From Lampris incognitus (lineage: Eukaryota; Chordata; Actinopteri; Lampriformes; Lampridae): DNA of 64,000 bases. Below are positions 14,804 through 53,755 of this stretch, piece after piece. How positions within the stretch are numbered: position 1 is the stretch's first letter; each line of letters opens with the position of its first letter. A model generated the notes under the pieces. It saw nothing but the letters and a program-made list of their open reading frames with translations, did no database searches and was not told the origin of the DNA. A program made the translations under genes and the position numbers. The stretch spans positions 17,236,626 to 17,300,625 of the forward strand of contig NC_079224.1 in NCBI RefSeq assembly GCF_029633865.1, in the 5' to 3' direction.

Positions 14804-14806
14804 TAT

Positions 14807-15355
14807 TAGTCCATGGGCCAGATGATATTTCGGTACACTCAAGATGGCAAAACTTACTTATAATTTTTGAAAGGATCCATGTCTGTAGATGATATTTTGG
14901 TATGATAACCATTCCTGAGTGGCAGCTGTATCACAGTTATCAGCTCATGAAGTTAACCACCCGCTAAACTAAATTGCATTTTAGACGCTGGTGCATATCC
15001 TGGTGTAGCCTCATGGTCAGGACATTTTTCAATGTTCTATAATATTGTCTTTGGTATCATTTTAAAGGGGACCTTCTTAGCTTTCATTCAAGCCCTGTTG
15101 TGGATATTTCTCACAAATATAGAGGTCACTTGAGCTCTTCAACCCGTCAATAAACACACATCTTTCTGCAATTTTCGCCTAAACTATATACTTTCTTTTA
15201 GCCTTGTGGCATCTAGGAATATCAGGGACACAAAACACAAAAACTGGAATACTCACAGGACTGTAAAGATTCAGGAAATGTATAATATACCCATACTATT
15301 TCATTGTGTGAGGTGATTGTGAGCCTTAAATGAGAACTAGACCAAAGCCAGTTAG
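14807..15355 (+). repeat. Left terminal inverted repeat of the 6.75-kb transposon
   Basis: Runs from TAGTCCATGGGCCAGATG to GACCAAAGCCAGTTAG and is the reverse complement of 20977-21556 with small indels. The tip differs: about 10 bases after the first 16 are missing relative to the right end. Confidence 0.9.
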
Positions 15356-15650
15356 GTCACAAACTGGTCTCTATACATTTGTTTAAATACACAATCAAAA
15401 TACATGATAAAAAGGAATACCATAGTGAGGTAATGAACTATTTTAATATTTTAAACAACATTGACATTTACATATACTTAGTCAATGATACATGTAATCC
15501 CATATCATTAGTGGGTATATGTAATGGTAATGGGTATATGTGAATATGGTTACATTATTGTTATCAAGCTCTGGGTAACCAAGTCCAGAATCAACATCCT
15601 GTGCATCAATAGACTACTACCACAGTAATACCATCAGAATCATCACACTG

Positions 15651-18600
15651 TCATTCATCAAACTGCTCGTTTCTCTCGTCATCTGACTCCCCAAGTTCAA
15701 AGTCCAGTTCTGGACCATCCTGCTGTTTTTGGTTACTGCAGGTCTGTAACCTGCACATGTCTGTGCATGGAAGTCCATTTGACAGGCACATGCAGCTTGG
15801 CATTTTGCATGAATGCACACACTTGCATGTTAGCATTTCCAAGACCACATCTGGTGCAGGTGGGGAGCGCATCCAGTAAATGGCCAGCTTGCCTTCATCG
15901 TCTGTCCATCCATACTCAGTAGGGCTTGGCACCACAGGGTTAGCCTGCAGACAGCACTTCCATATTGCTGCCTGATAGTTGGCTCGTTGAACATGCATAA
16001 AGAGACAGTCTCTACATGGTGGCAGCTGGCTAGACTCAACCTCTCCCCTTTTGGTGCAGAAGAGCTAGTAACGCAGTTTGTTCACCTCAGCAGTGCTGCT
16101 ATTAGCAACATACATCCGACAGGTGAACTGCTCAATTTTCTGGAACAGCTCATCACTCACATTCCATGTCTGTCCCAGTTGACTAAAAGTCTCTTGGCAG
16201 GAAGTGTGCTTTCTCACTATCTTCAGGGCATTCAGCTTCCCTCGACCAGCGAATGCACTGACAGTGTCGCAGCCTGTGAAGGCATGTAAGCCAATTAGGC
16301 TGTCACAGATGCTGTCTCCAAGTGAACTTGCCAGTTTGGTGATGTCGACAAACCGTGTGCGGTTCTGAGTCCCACACTTCTGGTAGATGGGACAGGTGAT
16401 GTCCTTCTGGAAGCCAAGACAAAGCACCATGACATCAGTGTCCTCAGCTGTGATGTTAACTGACTTTGAGCCCGCATTTGCTGCATGCAATGCATGCAGG
16501 AGCAGACGGGTGTCAGCTTCTTCATGTGTGGAGTGCGGTTCTGCTGCTTCCTCACACCCATCTTCTGTCAACTTGTAGCAGGTTTCCTCACAGGTCATGT
16601 ACAACACCTTGCCATGCAGCATAGCTCTGTATCGTGGGAGTTTCCACTCTTCCACCAGAAACTTGATGAGACTGGTCTTGTTGGAGGAACTGCACAGAAA
16701 TTTTCTCCACTGCTGGACGTGGTGTCCCCCTGCAAGATTCTTGTACTGGAGAGTGATGTCTCCACCCCGGTTCAGTCGTTCAGCATCTTTGATCGAAGTC
16801 TGGTGATAGACATCAAAAACAACATCAATCCTCCCACTCTGTGCTCCCTCATGGAGGACCTGGGTCAAGGCTGACTCTGCCACCTGTGCAAAAGTTTTGT
16901 TGTTGCCATTCATTTTTTGGACCAGGCTCATCCCATCAATGATGGAAGTAGATGGGATTGGGATGTCTTCTGCAGGAGATACATTCTTTTCAAGCTCTCT
17001 GGCAAGTGCAGCCTTGTTTGTTTTTCGTAAGGACCCATCAGCATTTGCCAGTGCCCATGGTAGTGGGCCCAATGGGTAGGCAAGGACATCCTTCAGATTC
17101 ACCTTCCTGCTTTCAGCCACCAGGATCATGTGACTGAAAAGGTTTCTATCTGCCTTCAGAACCACATCCTGTGCTTTCTTTCCATGAGCTTGCTTTGTGC
17201 CGACATTGGAGAATGTTTTCAGACTTTGCTTGGTCATCTTGTCGTGGAATTTCACAGGTGGCATCTAACCTTGTTTGCTGGAATGCTTGGTAGGCCTCTT
17301 CTCCTTTCTCAAGAGCTCTCAAGAGATCTATGGTCACATCAGGTGGAGCCATGTTGCCAGTGGAGAGGCTAACCAAATCAATCTCATCAGGGGACATAGG
17401 ATTGAGCCAGTTATTCTCCATAAGGTCCATGAGAGACTGGACATCTGCTTCATCTCTCTTGATCCTTGGACTCTGTAGATCTGGATGAGACCATTTGCAC
17501 CTGCCTTGACCTGTCAGGTCTCTCAGCTGTCTGAGGTACATGCTTCTATACTCAGCTGTGAGATAATATTTGGTCACAGCTCCTGGCTTCAAGCTGAATC
17601 CCTTAGTCCCTCCAGCTGTTTGGGTGTCTTTGTTCACCGTGTCTTCTATAGCTTGGTCAACAGGGATTCGGCCAAAGGGATTGGTGGAGCCCAGTTGGAC
17701 TGAGAAGCCTCCTTCCATGAATTCTGTGTACACATCTGGGTGTGTGATGGGCAGCTCAGACATCTGGGCGTAGTAGTAGGGGAGGTAGCGTGCATAATTC
17801 ATCCTGTCATAAGCAAAGCACCATGGGATCATTGCTCGAATGCTAGCCAAGTGTAGCATCCAGTCTCCCTCTCTGAATGCTCGGATGAGCCCCAACAAGA
17901 TTTCAACCATGTCCAAATAGGACATCCAGAAGTTCGAGAGGCTGCCGTTTCCACCTCTAAGGAACTCACGGTAGACTTCAAATAGATCCATGATGCGTGT
18001 ACAAGAGCTGTTCTCGAGGACCTCCTTCAAAGCATGTTGTGAGACTTCTTTCCCAAGGCTGTCAATGGTCTTCAGTGTCTCATTCAGGTGAACCATGTCA
18101 TTCCTGTGAGTTTCTTCCAACCAGGACAGGAAACCATTCAAGGTCAGTCGCATGAGAGCCTCATACAGGAGCTTGTGTAGTCACACTGCCCTGTTGTACT
18201 TGCGGCCATCCATAACACCAGCAATTGAGCCTTCTGCAATCATGCCAGACTCAATGCAGAGGTCTTCGAGTCCAGCATCTTGGAAACTCTTTCCTATTAT
18301 TGCCAGCAGTGTGCAGATGGTGTGGAATACCCCAAGCCTAACGATGATATCATGGAACTTGTCATGGCGTTTCCATGTGATCTCGACAGCCTTCGCATAC
18401 AGGGCTTGGTCAAAGACACAGACAATCTTCCTCAGGCCTAAGCACTGCATGATGCTCAGTGACTGGTTAAGCACCTCGTTGACAGTAGACATTTGTGTCG
18501 CTGGAGCATTGATGGTAGGCAGATAGCCTATATTGTCGGGGATGACCGTCATCTCTCCTCGAGTCAGGATGTTGAAGCCTGTCCAGCTGCTGACTGACTG

Positions 18601-20299
18601 TTCTTCTTGTTGTGAAATGCGTGCTAGGACCCAAAGAAGGTTTTTCTCTCTGGCAAGCTTAGTATTGGCTGCAGTATCGGCATCTGACTTTTTGCTTTGT
18701 GGTGGCCCTACCCGTTGTCCAGCATTGTAAGTTGGTAACATTGGTGGGGGTCCATCAATGCTTCTCTTCTTTGTTTTGGGAACAGTGGGCATGGGTTGGA
18801 CAGGAAGTGGGTTGACTGGCTTTGCTTGCACAGCAATCCCATTGACTCTGTGAGATGTTCCCTCACCACTGACAGTTTCTTCAAGACGGTCGATATTGTC
18901 CCAGGCTAAAGTTGTGAATATGCCAGGATGGATGTTAGCTGGAAGGGCAATGCCACCCCCTGATGATGAGAGTTTCTGGAGACACAGGGCAGTGTTGATC
19001 TCTTCCATCTGTGAATAGGACACACTGTGACCAAGTCGGTTGAGGATGTTTATCAACTCTACATTTCCTATCAACGATTTGACACTGAATGGCAGAACAA
19101 TGTGCTTGGAAGGCTTGGTATTTCCACATGTCACTGCATATACTATGTCATGGCCAAATGACTGCAGAAGGCACTGCACTCTCTGGGATGCATGATCAGG
19201 ATCATTTGAGCCTGTGAGTAGAGAGTACAGGAAGATAATGAGCGACTCTGGAATGGTAGGACATTCTGCTTCTGGTTTGAGGAACATCTTGACTTTTAAT
19301 GTCTGCTCTCAATTTGATGGCTGCTTTGGCTATAACATCTTGTGCACTGACACTTTTCAGGGTCTGCAGCTCCCTTTTGAGAGACTGATTTTCTTTGGCA
19401 AGTTCCCTCATGGACAAGTTATCGGGATAGAGGAGGAATTTTCCTTTCTCATCAGGGAATATCTGCAAGGCTCCAGCAAACTCACTCTCCAGGTTTCGCC
19501 TTATGTGCTTCTTGGTTGATTCCTTGACTTGGGCAATGCCTTGGGAGTTCATTGAAGCTACCAGTCTAGAAGAGAGATCAGTCATTGTCATCACTTGAGG
19601 ATTGCCAAAAAGCTCCATCCTGATGAAGAGGAACAGCTCATTGTATGCCTTATTCACAGCAGCTTCATACTGGGCTGCAGCATCATCATCTTCATTGCTG
19701 GCAACCCCTCCTTTGGAAACCTCTTCTTTGGTGTAAAGTCTATAGCATGACCTGTGGTAGTGCCCTTCAGCTGCTACAAGGTCTCTACTCACAATGGCAA
19801 GGATTCTGCTGTCCCTTTTCTTTGTGGCTGCACTCCTGATCTTTGCATCAGCTCGCAGTTCTCGACACTGCACCAGTACTTCTCTCGTAGTCTGTCTCTT
19901 GGAATATTTGCTGTTTTTCTGACAAAATATGCACTCTGCATCATAAGTCCTAGATGTACTTGGAGCATGTCGAGCTACTCTCTTAGATTGTTTCTCTTCA
20001 GCAGAGACACAACTTTTCTTTTCTTTTGCAAGGAGGCCATCAAGAATTTGCTTCATAGTGAAGATACTGCGACACTTTCTGTGGTAGTAGATTGCTGGAA
20101 TCTGTCCCTCAGGAATGTCTTTTGCCAGTTTCAAAACTGGTGCATGATTTCGTATCTGAGCTGCCCTGAGCAGAGTTCTCCATGAGTCGACACTTTGTAG
20201 TGAAACCAGCTTATCTGTATCATCAGAACAGTGGATAATGCACTCCACCCGTGGGCGCTTTGGTATTGGGTAAAAACTTGCTTGTTCACCAGTGGCCAT
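15651..20299 (-). pseudogene. Putative transposase/nuclease, ~1500 residues, four lesions
   Basis: Reading starts at ATG 20299 (MATGEQASFYPIPKRPR). Two similar Cys/His modules follow: CIIHCSDDTDKL with YYHRKCRSIFT, and CIFCQKNSKY with HYHRSCYRLYT. Then comes a coiled-coil-like stretch (LAKENQSLKRELQTLKS). A +1 frame change occurs near 19285. The second block (19287-18184) is mostly helical and of unknown fold. An in-frame TGA at 18181-18183 follows RKYNRAV, probably from CGA. The third block continues to a +1 change near 17262. The fourth block has FEN/XPG-like acidic motifs: VVFDVYHQTSIKDAERL, HEEADTRLLLHALHAA, AEDTDVMVLCLGF and LIGLHAFTGCDTVSAFAG. A TAG at 16065-16067 interrupts NKLRY/LFCTKRGEV. 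The C terminus is Cys-rich (LTCKCVHSCKMPSCMCLSNG) and ends acidic. Likely the transposition protein; nuclease activity is inferred from motifs only. Confidence 0.7.
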
Positions 20300-20976
20300 A
20301 TTAAGTCAGTTTTCACCTGCCACATACAAACAAATACATGTAACTTAGGTGTATGAACACTACTAAAACAAAGTTTACTTTGCTTCACCAGCGTCATATT
20401 ACCATTATTTATCTTACATAGCCACAAATAGATACATTACCTAGTTGCTATGCAACAGCTGTATTTTGTCCACATGAGGCCGCTAAAATCAACACAAGAT
20501 GAGAGTTCCTCGTAGCCACTTTAACTAATCATATTAACATATACATTAAAAGAACATGCTAACATTATGGGAAATTAGCTTACAATCTTCTCCAGAGTGA
20601 GACAAGAAGATAGATACCAGTTTCCTCTATATGTGTTTAGTAGAAAGCTATCCGGCTGCACGTTAGCCTAGCTTAGCACAATGAATGGAAGTACACAGTA
20701 CTGGTTATCCTTGGTTGTTGGCCAACTAAGAACTGTCCCAGAGTTTAAGCTAGGCTAAGCAGTACAAGGGGTGTTGAAATGCTATATTTGTAAAAATCTG
20801 GGCAAATACACAATCGTGAGAGGCACAGAAACAGGTTTCCTGAAAGAAAAATGAAATAGCTGCTCATTTGGAAAGGTTATCATGTATTATTTTACTTCTG
20901 TTAGTGTACCAAATAAAATGGCACCAGTGAAGTTGTGTCACCTTGGGTGATATCGATATCTGGTCTGACCCATGGA
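20300..20976 (-). promoter_or_regulatory. Upstream region of the transposon gene
   Basis: Lies between the start codon of the broken gene and the right inverted repeat. No TATA-type or other promoter element can be named with confidence. It should contain any promoter and 5' UTR of the element. Confidence 0.35.
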
Positions 20977-21556
20977 CTAACTGGCTTTGGTCTAGTTAGT
21001 TTCTTAGTAATAATGCCCTTCTAATTTAAGGTTCACAATCACCTCACACAATGAAATAGTATGGGTATATTATACATTTCCTGAATCTTTACAGTCCTGT
21101 GAGTATTCCAGTTTTGTGTTTTGTGTCCCTGATATTCCTAGATGCCACAGGGCTAAAAGAAAGTATATAGTTTAGGCGAACATTGCAGAAAGATGTGTGT
21201 TATTGACGGGTTGAAGAGCTCAAGTGACCTCTATATTTGTGAGAAATATCCACAACAGGGCTTGAATGAAAGCTAAGAAGGTCCCCTTTGAAATGATACC
21301 AAAGACAATATTATAGAACATTGAAAAATGTCCTGACCATGAGGCTAAACCAGGATATGCACCAGCGTCTAAAATGCAATTTAGTTTAGCGGGTGGTTAA
21401 CTTCATGAGCTGATGACTGTGATACAGCTGCCACTCAGGAATGGTTATCATACCAAAATATCATCTACAGACATGGATCCTTTCAAAAATTATAAGTAAG
21501 TTTTGCCACCTTGAGTGTACCGAAATAGGAAATTTTGGGCTCTGACCCATGGACTA
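20977..21556 (-). repeat. Right terminal inverted repeat of the 6.75-kb transposon
   Basis: Reverse complement of 14807-15355. Just inside its inner edge (20967-20979) the terminal word CCCATGGACTA occurs again, in the same orientation as at the true end (21546-21556). Confidence 0.9.
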
Positions 21557-23100
21557 TATGTATTCCATCTTGCTCCTACTGACTTTCAGTCCTCTTCTCT
21601 CCAGTACATACCTCCACCTCTCCAGGCTCTCCTCAACCTGCAGCCTACTCTTGCTACATATCACAATGTCATCTGCAAACCTCATAGTACACGGAGACTC
21701 CTGCCTGATCTCATCCGTCAACCCGTCCATCACCAGTGCAAACAAGAAAGGGCTCAGAGCCGATCCTTGGTGTAATTCCACCTCCACCTTGAACCCATCT
21801 GTCATTCCAACCGCACACCTCACCATTGTCACAATGCTCTCAGATATCCTGCACCTCTCCTACATACTCCTCTGCCACTCCCGACTTCCTCATACAATAC
21901 CACACCTCCTCTCTTGGCACCCCATCATATGCTTTCTCTAAATCTACAAAGACACAATGTAACTCCTTCTGGCCTACTCTATACTTCTCAAAGTAAAAAC
22001 CACATCTGTAGTACTCTTTCGTGGCATGAAACCATACTGCTGCTCGCTAATCGTCCCCTCTCATCTTAACCTAGCTTCTATTATTCTTTGCCATATCTTC
22101 ATGCTGTGGCTGATCAACTTTGTGCCTCTGTAGTTGCTACAGTTCTGCACATCGCCCTTATTCTTGAAAATCGGTACCAGTAAAAGTCTTCTCCACTTCT
22201 CAGGCATCCTCTCACTTTCTAAGATTGTGTTAAACAATCTAGTTAAAAACTCTACTGACATCTCTCCTAAACCTCTCCATGCCTCCACAGGTATGTCATC
22301 TGGACCAACTGCCTTTCCACTCTTCATAGCTGCCCTCACTTCCTCCTCACTAATCCACCACACTTCCTGATTCACTATCCCCACATTATCCAACCTTCTC
22401 TCTCTCATTTTTTTTTCATTCATCAGCCCCTCAAAGTACTCCTTCCACCTTCTCAGCACACTCTCCTCGCTTGTCAGCACATTTCCATCTCTATCCTTGA
22501 TCGCCCTTACCTGCTGCACATCCTTCCCAGCTCGGTCCCTCTGTTTAGCCAATCAGTACCAGTCCTTCTCTCCTTCCTTTGCGTCTAAATTCTCATACAA
22601 CTCACCATACATATTTTCCTTTGCCACCTCTCTTTGCTTTAGGCTGCATCTCCTTGTACTCCTGTATACTTTCTTCCTTCCTCTGACTATCCAACTTCTT
22701 TGCCATCCTCTCCCTCTGTATACTTTCCTGTATGTCCTCATTCCACCACCAAGTCTCCTTGTCTTCCTTTCTCTGTCCAAAGGACACACCAAGTACCTTC
22801 CTAGCTGTCTCCCTCACCATTTCTGCAGTGCCTGCCCAGTGATTCGGCAACTCTGCAGTACCACCCAGTGCCTGTTTTAACTCCTCCCTGAACTCCATAC
22901 AAAAGTCTTCCTTCTTCAGCTTCCACCATTTGATCCTTGGCTCTGCTGTAACTCTTCCTCAACTCCAAAGTTATCCTACAGACCACCATCTGATGCTGCC
23001 TAGCTACATTCTCCCCTGTCACCACCTTGCGTCTACAATCCCTTTCAGATCACGCCTTCTACACAAGATATAGTCCACCTGTGTGCACTTTCCTCCACTC
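21557..23100 (-). pseudogene. RTE copy 2, reverse transcriptase and linker
   Basis: RT blocks on the minus strand: AKQRDRAGKDVQQVRAIKD, AVGPDDIPVEAWRGLGEMS, LLVPIFKNKGDVQNC, SNYRGTKLISHSMKIW and, downstream, VEVELHQGSALSPFLFALVM with an intact motif C MRFADDIVICSKSRLQVEES. The catalytic DD pair is kept, unlike the stop in motif A of copy 1. Frames still break near 22060, 22550 and 22800. Confidence 0.85.
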
Positions 23101-26991: not shown

Positions 26992-28260
26992 CTAAGAACA
27001 AGTAACAGGGTAATAGTTCTTAAAGAGGCAAGTTTTCAACCTGTGCCAAAAGATGGGCAGCGACTCCGCTGTCCTGACATCAGTGGGGAGTTCATTCCAC
27101 CACTGTGGGGCCAAGACAGAAATGAGCTGTGACCGGGTTGATCGGCAGCAAGGGCCTCTGAGTGACGGGGCAATCAGGCGTCCCGAGGCAACAGAGCAAA
27201 GTGGTCGGGCGGGGGTGTAGGGCTTGACCATGGCCTGGTGATAGGAAGGAGCTGTTCCTTTCACTGCCCTGTAGGCTAACACCAGAGTCTTAAACTGGAT
27301 GTGAACAGCTAATGGGAGCCAGTGTAGGGACATGAGAAGGGGAGTTGTGTGGGAGAACTTAGGGCAGTTGAACACCAGACGAGCTGCAGCTTTCTGAACA
27401 AGCTCCAGAGGACTGATGGCCGACACCGGGGCACCAGCAAGGAGGGAGTTGCTTTAGTCCAGCCAGGAGATGACCAGAGCCTGGATGAGCACCTGTGCAG
27501 TCTCGTCAGTGAGGAATGGGTGAATCCTCCTGATGTTATAGAGGAGAAATCTGCAGGAGCGAGCAACTGATGCAACGTTTTCAGCAAACGATAGGTGGTC
27601 GTCCAGGATCACATCCAGATTCCTCACAGTCCGAGTTGGCGTCACCACGGTGTTGTCAATGGTAATGGCCAGGTCTCGGTGCGGGCAACCTTTCCCCGGG
27701 AGGAACATCAGCTCTGTCTTGTCCAGATTGAGCTTCAGGTGGTGTGTCACCATCCACTCCGAGATGTCAGTCAAGCACGCAGCAATGCGTGTCTCTACTT
27801 GTGTGTCAGAGGGAGGAAAGGACAAGATCAGCTGGGTGTAATCGGCATAACATTGGTAAGAGAAGTCATGCGAGTGAATAACAGAACCCAGGGATGTCGT
27901 GTACAGGGAGAAAAGGAGAGGACCCATAACCGAATCCTGTGGAACACCTGTAGTCAGTCTGCGAGGCTCTGACACAGATCCCCTCCATGTCACCTGGTAG
28001 GAACGACCTGTCAGGTAGGTTGCAAACATTGAGAGTGCAGAGCCTGTGACACCCAGCCCGTCGAGGGTAGAGAGAAGGATCTGGTGGTTCACTGTGTCAA
28101 ACGCAGCTGACAGGTCCAGGAGTATCATGACAGAAGAGAGAGAGTTTGCTCTCGCAGAGTGCAGCGATTCTGTCAAGAGAAGGAGGGCCGTCTCTGTCGA
28201 GTGACCCATCCTGAACTCAGACTGGTTGGGGTCCAGCAGGAGGTACAAAGAAAGTTGGTT
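26992..28260 (-). pseudogene. L2-like LINE reverse transcriptase
   Basis: Minus strand 28248-27454: SEFRMGHSTETALLLLTESL, VMILLDLSAAFDTVNHQILL (motif A intact), TGVPQDSVMGPLLFSLYTTS, then SYQCYADYTQLILSF. The catalytic YADD is YADY here, so the enzyme would be inactive. The frame continues to LTDETAQVLIQALVISWLD, where a stop (TAA) replaces the usual Tyr. It then shifts to 27426-26992: ELVQKAAARLVFNCPKFSHT, LHWLPLAVHIQFKTLVLAYR, LAPQWWNELPTDVRTAESLP, HRLKTCLFKNYYP. This is the best-preserved RT in the window apart from the active-site change. Confidence 0.85.
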
Positions 28261-28818
28261 AAAGACGGCACGTTCGAAAGTTTGGATAGGAAGAGTAGAA
28301 GAGAAACTGGTCTGTAGTTTTTTGACATCAGAGGGGTTACGTGATGGTTTCTTGAGAAGGCGGGGGGGTGACTAGCAGTCTTGAAGGCAGATGGAAAGCA
28401 TCCTGCCTGGAGGGAGGTGTTGATGAGGGTTAGATAGGGAAGGAGTTCAGGTGCTATAGACTGAAGAACAGGGGAGGGGACCGGGTCAGATGAGGTTTAG
28501 AACCTCGTTGGGGGAGAGGGTGCAAGCAGCACTAACCGGGTGGTGAGAAAAGGAGGATCTGATGTCGTTTACCTTCTTGTCAAAGAAGTTAGCAAAGTCA
28601 TCAGAGAGAAGGGAGGAAGAGTTTGAAGAAGTATAGAATAGGTTTCAAAGAGTTTCTTAGGATTAGAGGATAGGATTTTAGAGCGATAGAAGGCAGCCTT
28701 AGCAGCAGAAAGTAAGGAAGAGAAAGTGGAAAGAAGAGAAGGTCCTCTGGGAGTTTGCCTTTTCTCCATTTGCGCTTTGCCACTCTTAGGCTCCGTCTTT
28801 CAGTATGTACTGAGTCGG

Positions 28819-29640
28819 TCAGCCAAGGGGCAGGTGGAGTTGGGCGTGCAGGCCTGGAGGGGAGGGGACAGAGATTGTCCAGAGAAGAAGATCAGTAGCA
28901 GTGTCAGGGGGTAGGAGAGAGAAAGATTCAGGTGTAGGGAGGATAGAGGTAACAGAGGAAGAAAGATCAGTGGCAGAGAGAGAGCAGAGGTGTCTACAAG
29001 TGGAAACCATGTGGGTAGGGGAAGGGGCTGAAGACAGGGAGAGTGAGTAGGATATGAAATAGTGGTCTGAAAGCTGGAGGGGAGTAGCAGAGAGATTGGA
29101 AATAGGACAGTGTCTAGTAAAGATAAGGTCCAGCTGGTTACTGGCCTTGCGAGTAGGAGGAGAGGGTGAGAGGTGAAGGTCAAAGGAGGAGAGGAAAGAG
29201 AGAAGAGGATCTAGCTTGTTAGTGTGGATGTTGAAGTCACCGAGAAGGATAAGTGCAGAGTCATCAACAGGGAAGTGCGAGGCAAGTTTGTCAAGCTCCT
29301 TCAGAAACTCACCAAGGGGGCCTGGTGGGCGGTACACAACCACGATGGTGAGTTTGACTGGATAAGAGACAGTAACAGCATGAAATTCAAAAGAGGGCAG
29401 AGAAAATTGTGGAATGGAAATGAGAGCATTTCAGTGAGATTAGCAGGCCAGTACCACCACCCCGCCTCCTAGCTCTGGGAGTGTGAGAAAAAGAGTACAC
29501 ATCAGACAGAGCTGCAGGTGTGGTAGTGTTTTCTGGCATGATCCAGGTCTCAGTTAGAGCAAGAAAGTTGAGGGAGAGCAAGGATGCACAGTCTGAGATA
29601 AACTCAGTTTTCAGCACCGCAGACTAGCAATTCCAGAGCC
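28819..29640 (-). pseudogene. L2-like LINE endonuclease
   Basis: Minus strand: NFLALTETWIMPENT (catalytic Glu block) at 29617-29540, then VVYRPPGPLGEFLKELDKLA, SALILLGDFNIHTNKLDPLL (Asp/Asn block), ASNQLDLIFTRHCPISNLS and LQLSDHYFISYSLSLSS (Asp-His block). AP-type endonuclease that nicks target DNA. A frame break near 29385 separates the first block. The linker toward the RT (28800-28260) is full of stops. Confidence 0.8.
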
Positions 29641-52739: not shown

Positions 52740-52822
52740 TCGAGAAGCTCCGCCCCCTTTGTGCTGAGACCCACGCCCCTCCCCTGCAGACGGCCATTTA
52801 GACATTGCGTTTAAAACGAAAG
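52740..52822 (+). promoter_or_regulatory. GC-rich upstream region of the hnRNP A0 gene
   Basis: GAAGCTCCGCCCCCTTTGTG and CCCACGCCCCTCCCCTGCAG contain two GC-box/Sp-type words. The 5' UTR probably lies within these bases. No TATA box seen. Start context is AACGAAAGATGA (A at -3). Confidence 0.5.
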
Positions 52823-53755
52823 ATGACTCACCAACTTTGTAAACTTTTCGTCGGTAGACTGAGTGCGAGCACCGACGACGATGGGCTACGCATGCATTTC
52901 GAGCAGTTCGGCACTCTCGCCGACTGCGTTGTCGTCGTGAACAAGCCGCTTAAGCGGTCCCGTTGTTTCGGCTTTGTATCCTACTCGACGCCGGAGGAGG
53001 CCGACGCAGCAATAGCGGCCAGGCCACATGTCGTGGACGGCAGAACGGTCGAACTGAAAAGAGCCGTGGCGAGGGAAGACTCCAACAAACCAGAGGTTGT
53101 CGCTAAAGTGAAGAACATATTCGTCGGGGGACTGAAAGACGACATCGAAGAGGACAACTTGACCGAGTATTTTTCCCAGTTTGGCAAAATCGAGAGGTCC
53201 AAAGTTATTTCGCAGAGGGAAACCGGAAAGAGAAGAGGCTTCGGCTTTGTCCACTTTGTGGACACCGACTCAGCCGACAAGGCGGTCGCCTTGAAGTTCC
53301 ACTACGTCAAGGGACACAAAGTCGAGGTGAAGAAAGCCCTTACCAAGGAACTGATGCAGTCGGCCAACAGGGTCGGCATGATGAGAGGTGTGATGGGTCA
53401 AAATCGCTTCGGTGGCGGCAGAGGAGAGTGCAGCAGCTACGGGGGAAATGGTAGAGGCTACGGAGACGGCTATATTGGGGGTTACGGAGACCAGATGGGA
53501 GGTTACGGATACACCGATTTTGGTAGCGGCTACAGTCAGCAGCCATCTGGTTATGGTCCGATGAAAGGCCCCGCTCCAGGCTACGGTGCCCAGAGAAGCG
53601 CTGCTCCATACGCCTTTGGGGGCGGCGGGGGTGGCTACCAGAGAGGGGCCTATGGCGGTGGATATTATACGCCGATCTCACAACCTCGACCATACCTTCA
53701 TCCCATTCATCTCAATGCAGAAACGTGGACACTGAGCCCCTTTAATCCTCAGTAA
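52823..53755 (+). CDS. hnrnpa0: Heterogeneous nuclear ribonucleoprotein A0 (intronless)
   Basis: 310 residues in one exon, ATG at 52823 (MTHQLCKLFVGRL). An upstream in-frame extension to 52805 has no ATG (TTG). RRM1 is about residues 7-82, with RNP2 KLFVGRL and RNP1 RCFGFVSY. RRM2 is about 98-172, with NIFVGGL and RGFGFVHF. A Gly/Tyr-rich tail follows (195-282), with a PY-NLS-like stretch around DFGSGYSQQPSGYGPMKG and QRSAAPY (230-263), as in hnRNP A proteins. Vertebrate HNRNPA0 is also intronless and about 305 residues, so single-exon structure is normal and not evidence of a retrocopy. It binds nuclear and cytoplasmic RNA, with known roles in mRNA stability and processing. The last 28 residues (TPISQPRPYLHPIHLNAETW and on) are not Gly-rich and look unlike the usual end; a late frameshift or a lineage-specific tail are both possible. 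Fish have a and b paralogues; I cannot say which. CpG-rich, unlike its surroundings. Confidence 0.9.
   Translation: MTHQLCKLFVGRLSASTDDDGLRMHFEQFGTLADCVVVVNKPLKRSRCFGFVSYSTPEEADAAIAARPHVVDGRTVELKRAVAREDSNKPEVVAKVKNIFVGGLKDDIEEDNLTEYFSQFGKIERSKVISQRETGKRRGFGFVHFVDTDSADKAVALKFHYVKGHKVEVKKALTKELMQSANRVGMMRGVMGQNRFGGGRGECSSYGGNGRGYGDGYIGGYGDQMGGYGYTDFGSGYSQQPSGYGPMKGPAPGYGAQRSAAPYAFGGGGGGYQRGAYGGGYYTPISQPRPYLHPIHLNAETWTLSPFNPQ

Follow-up and report, generated by a model that had tools for sequence, protein, structure and literature searches.

A probable Academ-type DNA transposon with a predicted FEN/XPG-type nuclease, recently multiplied in the genome of Lampris incognitus

In this study, we analysed a 64,000-nucleotide stretch of contig NC_079224.1 of Lampris incognitus (hereafter the window), in which positions 14807-21556 form a transposon-like unit of 6750 bp bounded by two inverted arms. 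The left terminal arm (14807..15355, plus strand) starts with TAGTCCATGG and the right terminal arm (20977..21556, minus strand) finishes with CCATGGACTA. These termini are complementary, and, apart from a few small insertions or deletions, the arms agree at approximately 98% along most of their extent. Exact 3-bp copies of TAT flank the unit at 14804-14806 and 21557-21559 as a target-site duplication (TSD). The element was inserted within a copy of a long interspersed nuclear element (LINE), and its flanks, when joined, align unbroken at 87% to a second LINE copy in the window (5352-3936, minus strand), which has CATAG at the position where CATAT would be expected from the filled site. Matched long inverted repeats, a TAT duplication and an empty site in a second copy of this LINE (RTE) had been proposed in a preliminary description of the locus made from the letters alone, and all three were borne out. 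The 16-bp outer right end (21541-21556) is exactly repeated at the inner border of its arm (20964-20979, minus strand; TCTGACCCATGGACTA), 577 bp further in, and the core of this inner end, CCCATGGACTA, is present in 18/18 full copies compared. In the insertions read, it was the outer right end that had been used. The nested right end might be explained by an older end having acquired the long arms on its outer side.

The unit contains a single intron-less gene on the minus strand (15651..20299), which encodes 1558 residues where it is unbroken. The window copy is divided into five pieces by two frameshifts (near 19289 and at 17262-17265) and two stops (18181-18183 and 16065-16067). Two N-terminal zinc-type modules (C..HxxC and CxxC..HxxC; 19745..20242, minus strand) are recognized by residue conservation among the relatives: C21 is kept in 34/34 and H74 and C77 in 35/36 for module 1, and C124 in 38/38, C127 in 38/39, and H183 and C186 in 40/40 for module 2. 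They are followed on the same strand by a possible winged-helix DNA-binding domain (19415..19708, model residues 199-296), a probable DDE (RNase H-like) transposase core (17800..18915, with approximate borders), and a predicted FEN/XPG/EXO1-type nuclease domain (15921..17018). The C-terminal tail (15738..15827, minus strand) is CXC-like (Tesmin/TSO1-like), and each of its eight cysteines is kept in 39/39 relatives. An eight-cysteine (Cys8) motif may be a feature of Academ transposons. A gene of about 1500 residues with paired Cys/His modules, acidic nuclease-like motifs and a Cys-rich tail had been read from the window copy in the preliminary description, and this observation is confirmed.

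The predicted structure contains a full FEN/EXO1-type nuclease fold, as in FEN1, EXO1, XPG, GEN1 and XRN nucleases. The PIN/FEN fold and the conserved acidic metal-ligand pattern by which the FEN/XPG superfamily is recognized are both found in this predicted model, with acidic codons at 16935-16937, 16812-16814, 16518-16520, 16512-16514, 16440-16442, 16434-16436 and 16266-16268 (minus strand), in an order that presumably matches that of the FEN1 ligands. We predict a FEN/XPG nuclease fold in the element protein with good confidence. Viral FEN and XRN enzymes among the structural matches reflect the nuclease fold alone. No relative was detected in viral, bacterial or archaeal genome contigs in short-pattern scans, which were not exhaustive. 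The PIN-domain family PIN-TPR-GreABC was matched by 2/30 relatives at E 0.066, too weak for use. Among the sequences of solved structures, the nuclease block had no match, and the family profile gave three chance-level matches around the cysteine tail.

The middle region is probably a DDE (RNase H-like) transposase core, as suggested by its strand order and by conserved codons for D (18898-18900 / 18889-18891), D (18409-18411) and E (17869-17871) on the minus strand, which fit a DDD/E core; a transposase fold was not matched. Two relatives (P0063 and P0085) show Pfam DUF6589 at E about 2e-5 over the proposed core, below the cut-off, and the printed DUF6589 scores (14, 23.9 and 24) are all under the cut-off of 27. 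DUF6589 may itself be the Academ-type transposase core; a literature search for this domain found no paper. Distant DUF6589-type proteins were sought with the putative DDE segment of one relative, and 332 matches were obtained with E values of up to 10. Of these, the best 120 (230-700 residues, the query length window) are at least 43% identical and appear to be shorter fragments of the present family.

The host genome (1.48 Gb, 537 contigs) was searched with the left arm. Among 536 first-look candidates, a figure that is not a copy number, 40 were scored and all (40/40) were 96-100% identical, including the window arm and both arms of another copy. Twenty copies were fetched, and 17 of them were aligned with the window as 18 full-length copies; L017 (with an insertion inside the element), L012 (a 2591-bp deletion derivative) and L028 (5513 bp) were left out. 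For 18 further copies, short stretches were taken at both expected ends, and both ends were found in 14; the far ends of L030, L031, L032 and L041 lie outside the fetched stretches, and L031 and L032 have the same left flank. An exact 3-bp duplication is present in 30/35 insertions with both ends examined, window included, while the identity extends over 4 bp in 1/35 and over 5 bp or more in 0/35. Chance pairing of the arms is excluded by the uniform arm matches together with these duplications. The search with an inverted repeat and the count of 3-base duplications that the preliminary description had called for show both ends and the intervening gene recurring as one unit.

The 30 exact sites form a weak target palindrome, C-WNW-G, with C at -2 in 18, G at +2 in 15 and both in 10; the outer positions of the duplication are A or T in 23 and 26 (p = 7e-8 for C/G and 9e-6 for A/T, against flank composition). 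The window element has A instead of C at -2. Such symmetry is the trace expected of a two-fold symmetric integrating complex. The derivative mentioned above (L012:301-2891) is internally deleted, retains both ends and a CCA duplication, and is a candidate non-autonomous form.

The family is young and has very recently multiplied in the host genome. The 18 full copies differ from their column-wise majority by 0.22-0.53% (0.50%, or 34/6749, for the window) and from each other by 0.47-1.04%, L022 and L027 being a clearly closer pair. Coding changes relative to the majority comprise 73 silent, 211 replacement and 12 nonsense changes, where 78, 207 and 11 are expected under neutrality, with transition bias but not CpG allowed for; this match to the expectation without selection suggests that copies decay neutrally after insertion. 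Within each of six copies compared, 7-17 of about 540 positions distinguish the left arm from the right, a divergence greater than that between copies, and arm divergence therefore overstates the age. An uninterrupted 1558-residue frame is present in 4/20 arm-fetched copies, and one of these (L016) no longer has one of the nuclease aspartates. When the genome was searched at the protein level, a 1560-codon frame is stop-free in 23 and has one stop in 7 of the best 30 of 4206 candidates, a selection in which the intact fraction is not representative. Two open-frame gene copies (C1:35043297-35047964 and C1:35057168-35061835) are separated by about 9 kb and point in opposite directions, possibly through local hopping.

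Relatives were sought with the read-through protein, in which X marks the breaks, and scoring covered residues 640-1500. This yielded 233 related proteins, of which the best 120 are 45-78% identical, with 75/120 of at least 1450 residues and 28/120 shorter than 1200. Among the matches listed for this search and for that with the putative DDE segment, the named sources include fishes, lancelets, a coral, an anemone, a sea spider and a snail. Their database names are hypothetical or uncharacterized, and two are called 'Tesmin/TSO1-like CXC'. The preliminary description had expected such proteins to stand as 'uncharacterized' in fish and cnidarian gene sets; our results indicate that the proteins so named in these animals are members of the element's protein family. 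The five open reading frame (ORF) pieces of the window gave weak, sub-cut-off matches only in Pfam (E up to 1) and NCBIfam. The tail did not qualify as a Tesmin/TSO1 CXC domain: Pfam TCR scored 13.2, 11.5 and 11.5 bits against a cut-off of 23.5 in six relatives scanned (the other three not listed), and matched 3/30 members at E up to 0.1.

Based on these data, we regard the element as a cut-and-paste Academ-type transposon (AcademX-like, of the XPG-nuclease branch) that has expanded very recently and in which a DDE core and a FEN-type domain would divide the strand cuts, a reading to which we assign a probability of roughly 80%. By TSD length and nuclease it is probably a member of AcademX, and the earlier suggestion of an Academ-like element is supported in this form. 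We take the nuclease of AcademX to be of the XPG type, the passage cited below saying 'nuclease' only.

Several observations count against this reading. For the nuclease, the Foldseek E value is below 0.001 for only 2/364 matches, followed by unrelated SUMO E1 chains at about 0.007; neither the nuclease block nor the profile matches solved FEN enzymes in sequence; and Pfam XPG is not matched by the window ORF pieces or by the relatives scanned (30 members). Of the checks proposed at the outset, the profile search gave no Pfam XPG match and the structure prediction gave the FEN/EXO1-type fold. For the transposase, no such enzyme is among the listed structural matches, although the nuclease fills those lists, so that this excludes nothing; the identity of the third acidic residue is in doubt, since E267 (69/69) is as conserved as E363; and the middle region has a weak DUF6589 match in 7/30 members (best 1.9e-5). 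Five of the 35 insertions (L017, L021, L024, L040 and L042) have no matching TSD; in L024, where the outermost bases are missing at one end, the border was set by length, so that no match is to be expected, and part of another copy adjoins L021. The AcademX placement follows published descriptions of the group, and the genomic copies show insertions rather than present movement, excision or the strand cut by the FEN domain.

We propose a transposition scheme that follows the domain order. The N-terminal zinc modules and the winged helix would bind the element ends. The DDE core would nick the 3' ends and join them across a 3-bp stagger in the C-WNW-G palindrome. The 5' (non-transferred) strand would be cut or trimmed by the fused FEN-type domain. 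One protein would thus make both strand cuts, a division of labour inferred by analogy with that of TnsA and TnsB in Tn7. The fullest version, a currently mobile animal Academ with one protein using its DDE core for the transferred and its FEN domain for the other strand, and with nested ends that record the addition of arms, is speculative and rather unlikely as a whole.

The main rival is a repair-only role, in which the DDE core makes all essential cuts and the FEN domain removes 5' flaps after strand transfer. FEN-type enzymes are established flap and junction nucleases, and the element domain is predicted as a full FEN/EXO1-type fold. However, conservation of its acidic residues equals that of the putative transposase residues, which suggests that the nuclease is needed, with the step unspecified; we consider this role a serious if minority possibility. 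Improbable, in our view, is a separate superfamily outside Academ that acquired its FEN nuclease independently and has a DUF6589-type core. DUF6589 is the most frequent Pfam signal among the 30 relatives, the Academ likeness is known by description, and our literature search found no paper naming Academ together with XPG; yet TSD length and nuclease both fit AcademX, and the DUF6589 region could be the Academ core itself. Much the same low probability applies to spread by copying out, with the FEN domain resolving the intermediate and no excision: many copies are near-identical and recent and none shows excision, but the inverted-repeat and TSD structure is ordinary, and cut-and-paste elements are also known to burst. 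That the ends come from two different elements, or are a chance arm pair around an unrelated gene, is hardly credible; the inner right-end copy could mean that the arms are additions to an older element, but both ends and the gene recur as one unit, and exact TSDs at the outer ends refute a two-element origin of the present unit, in line with the preliminary description.

In the literature seen, which was available in part, no account of the role of the Academ nuclease was found beyond its apparent tie to TSD length. Because the ends and the 3-bp target are defined, a full nuclease domain is predicted and several recent copies are unbroken, this role can now be addressed by mutation. The mode of movement is directly testable because a number of copies keep an unbroken gene.

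Elsewhere in the window, an open frame at 52802-53755 (plus strand) encodes two RNA recognition motifs (RRM_1) and a glycine-rich tail and resembles a host gene of the hnRNP A type or a retrocopy. Further non-LTR (long terminal repeat) retrotransposon remains with reverse transcriptase and endonuclease domains lie at 27454-28371 and 28819-29430 (minus strand).

Academ is counted among the DDD/E superfamilies (PMC9587614). Its TSD is 3 or 4 bp in AcademX and 9 or 10 bp in AcademH, and the length is apparently related to the encoded nuclease or helicase, respectively (PMC10045372). The TSD of the present element (exact over 3 bp in 30/35, over 4 bp in 1/35) lies within the AcademX range, and its predicted XPG/FEN-type nuclease parallels the nuclease encoded by AcademX; the arms of about 545 bp, the nested inner right end, the two zinc modules and the eight-cysteine tail are features of the element described here. 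Both hallmarks of AcademH, the other Academ lineage, are absent: no duplication reaches 5 bp (0/35), and no helicase is among the 16 Pfam families of 30 relatives (E up to 0.1) or in the window ORF pieces. Academ transposons are present in transcriptomes of the southern platyfish (PMC4705583) and one Academ-1 gain is on record in Daphnia mutation-accumulation lines (PMC8594854); therefore, neither a fish Academ nor a mobile Academ is new. The nuclease domain resembles FEN1, EXO1, XPG, GEN1 and XRN in predicted fold and acidic ligand pattern, but it has no detectable sequence match to them and is fused to a putative transposase. In Tn7, TnsA and TnsB share the strand cuts. The element would resemble this system in pairing a DDE enzyme with a second nuclease, an analogy only, whereas its nuclease has a different fold and both activities would reside in one fused protein.
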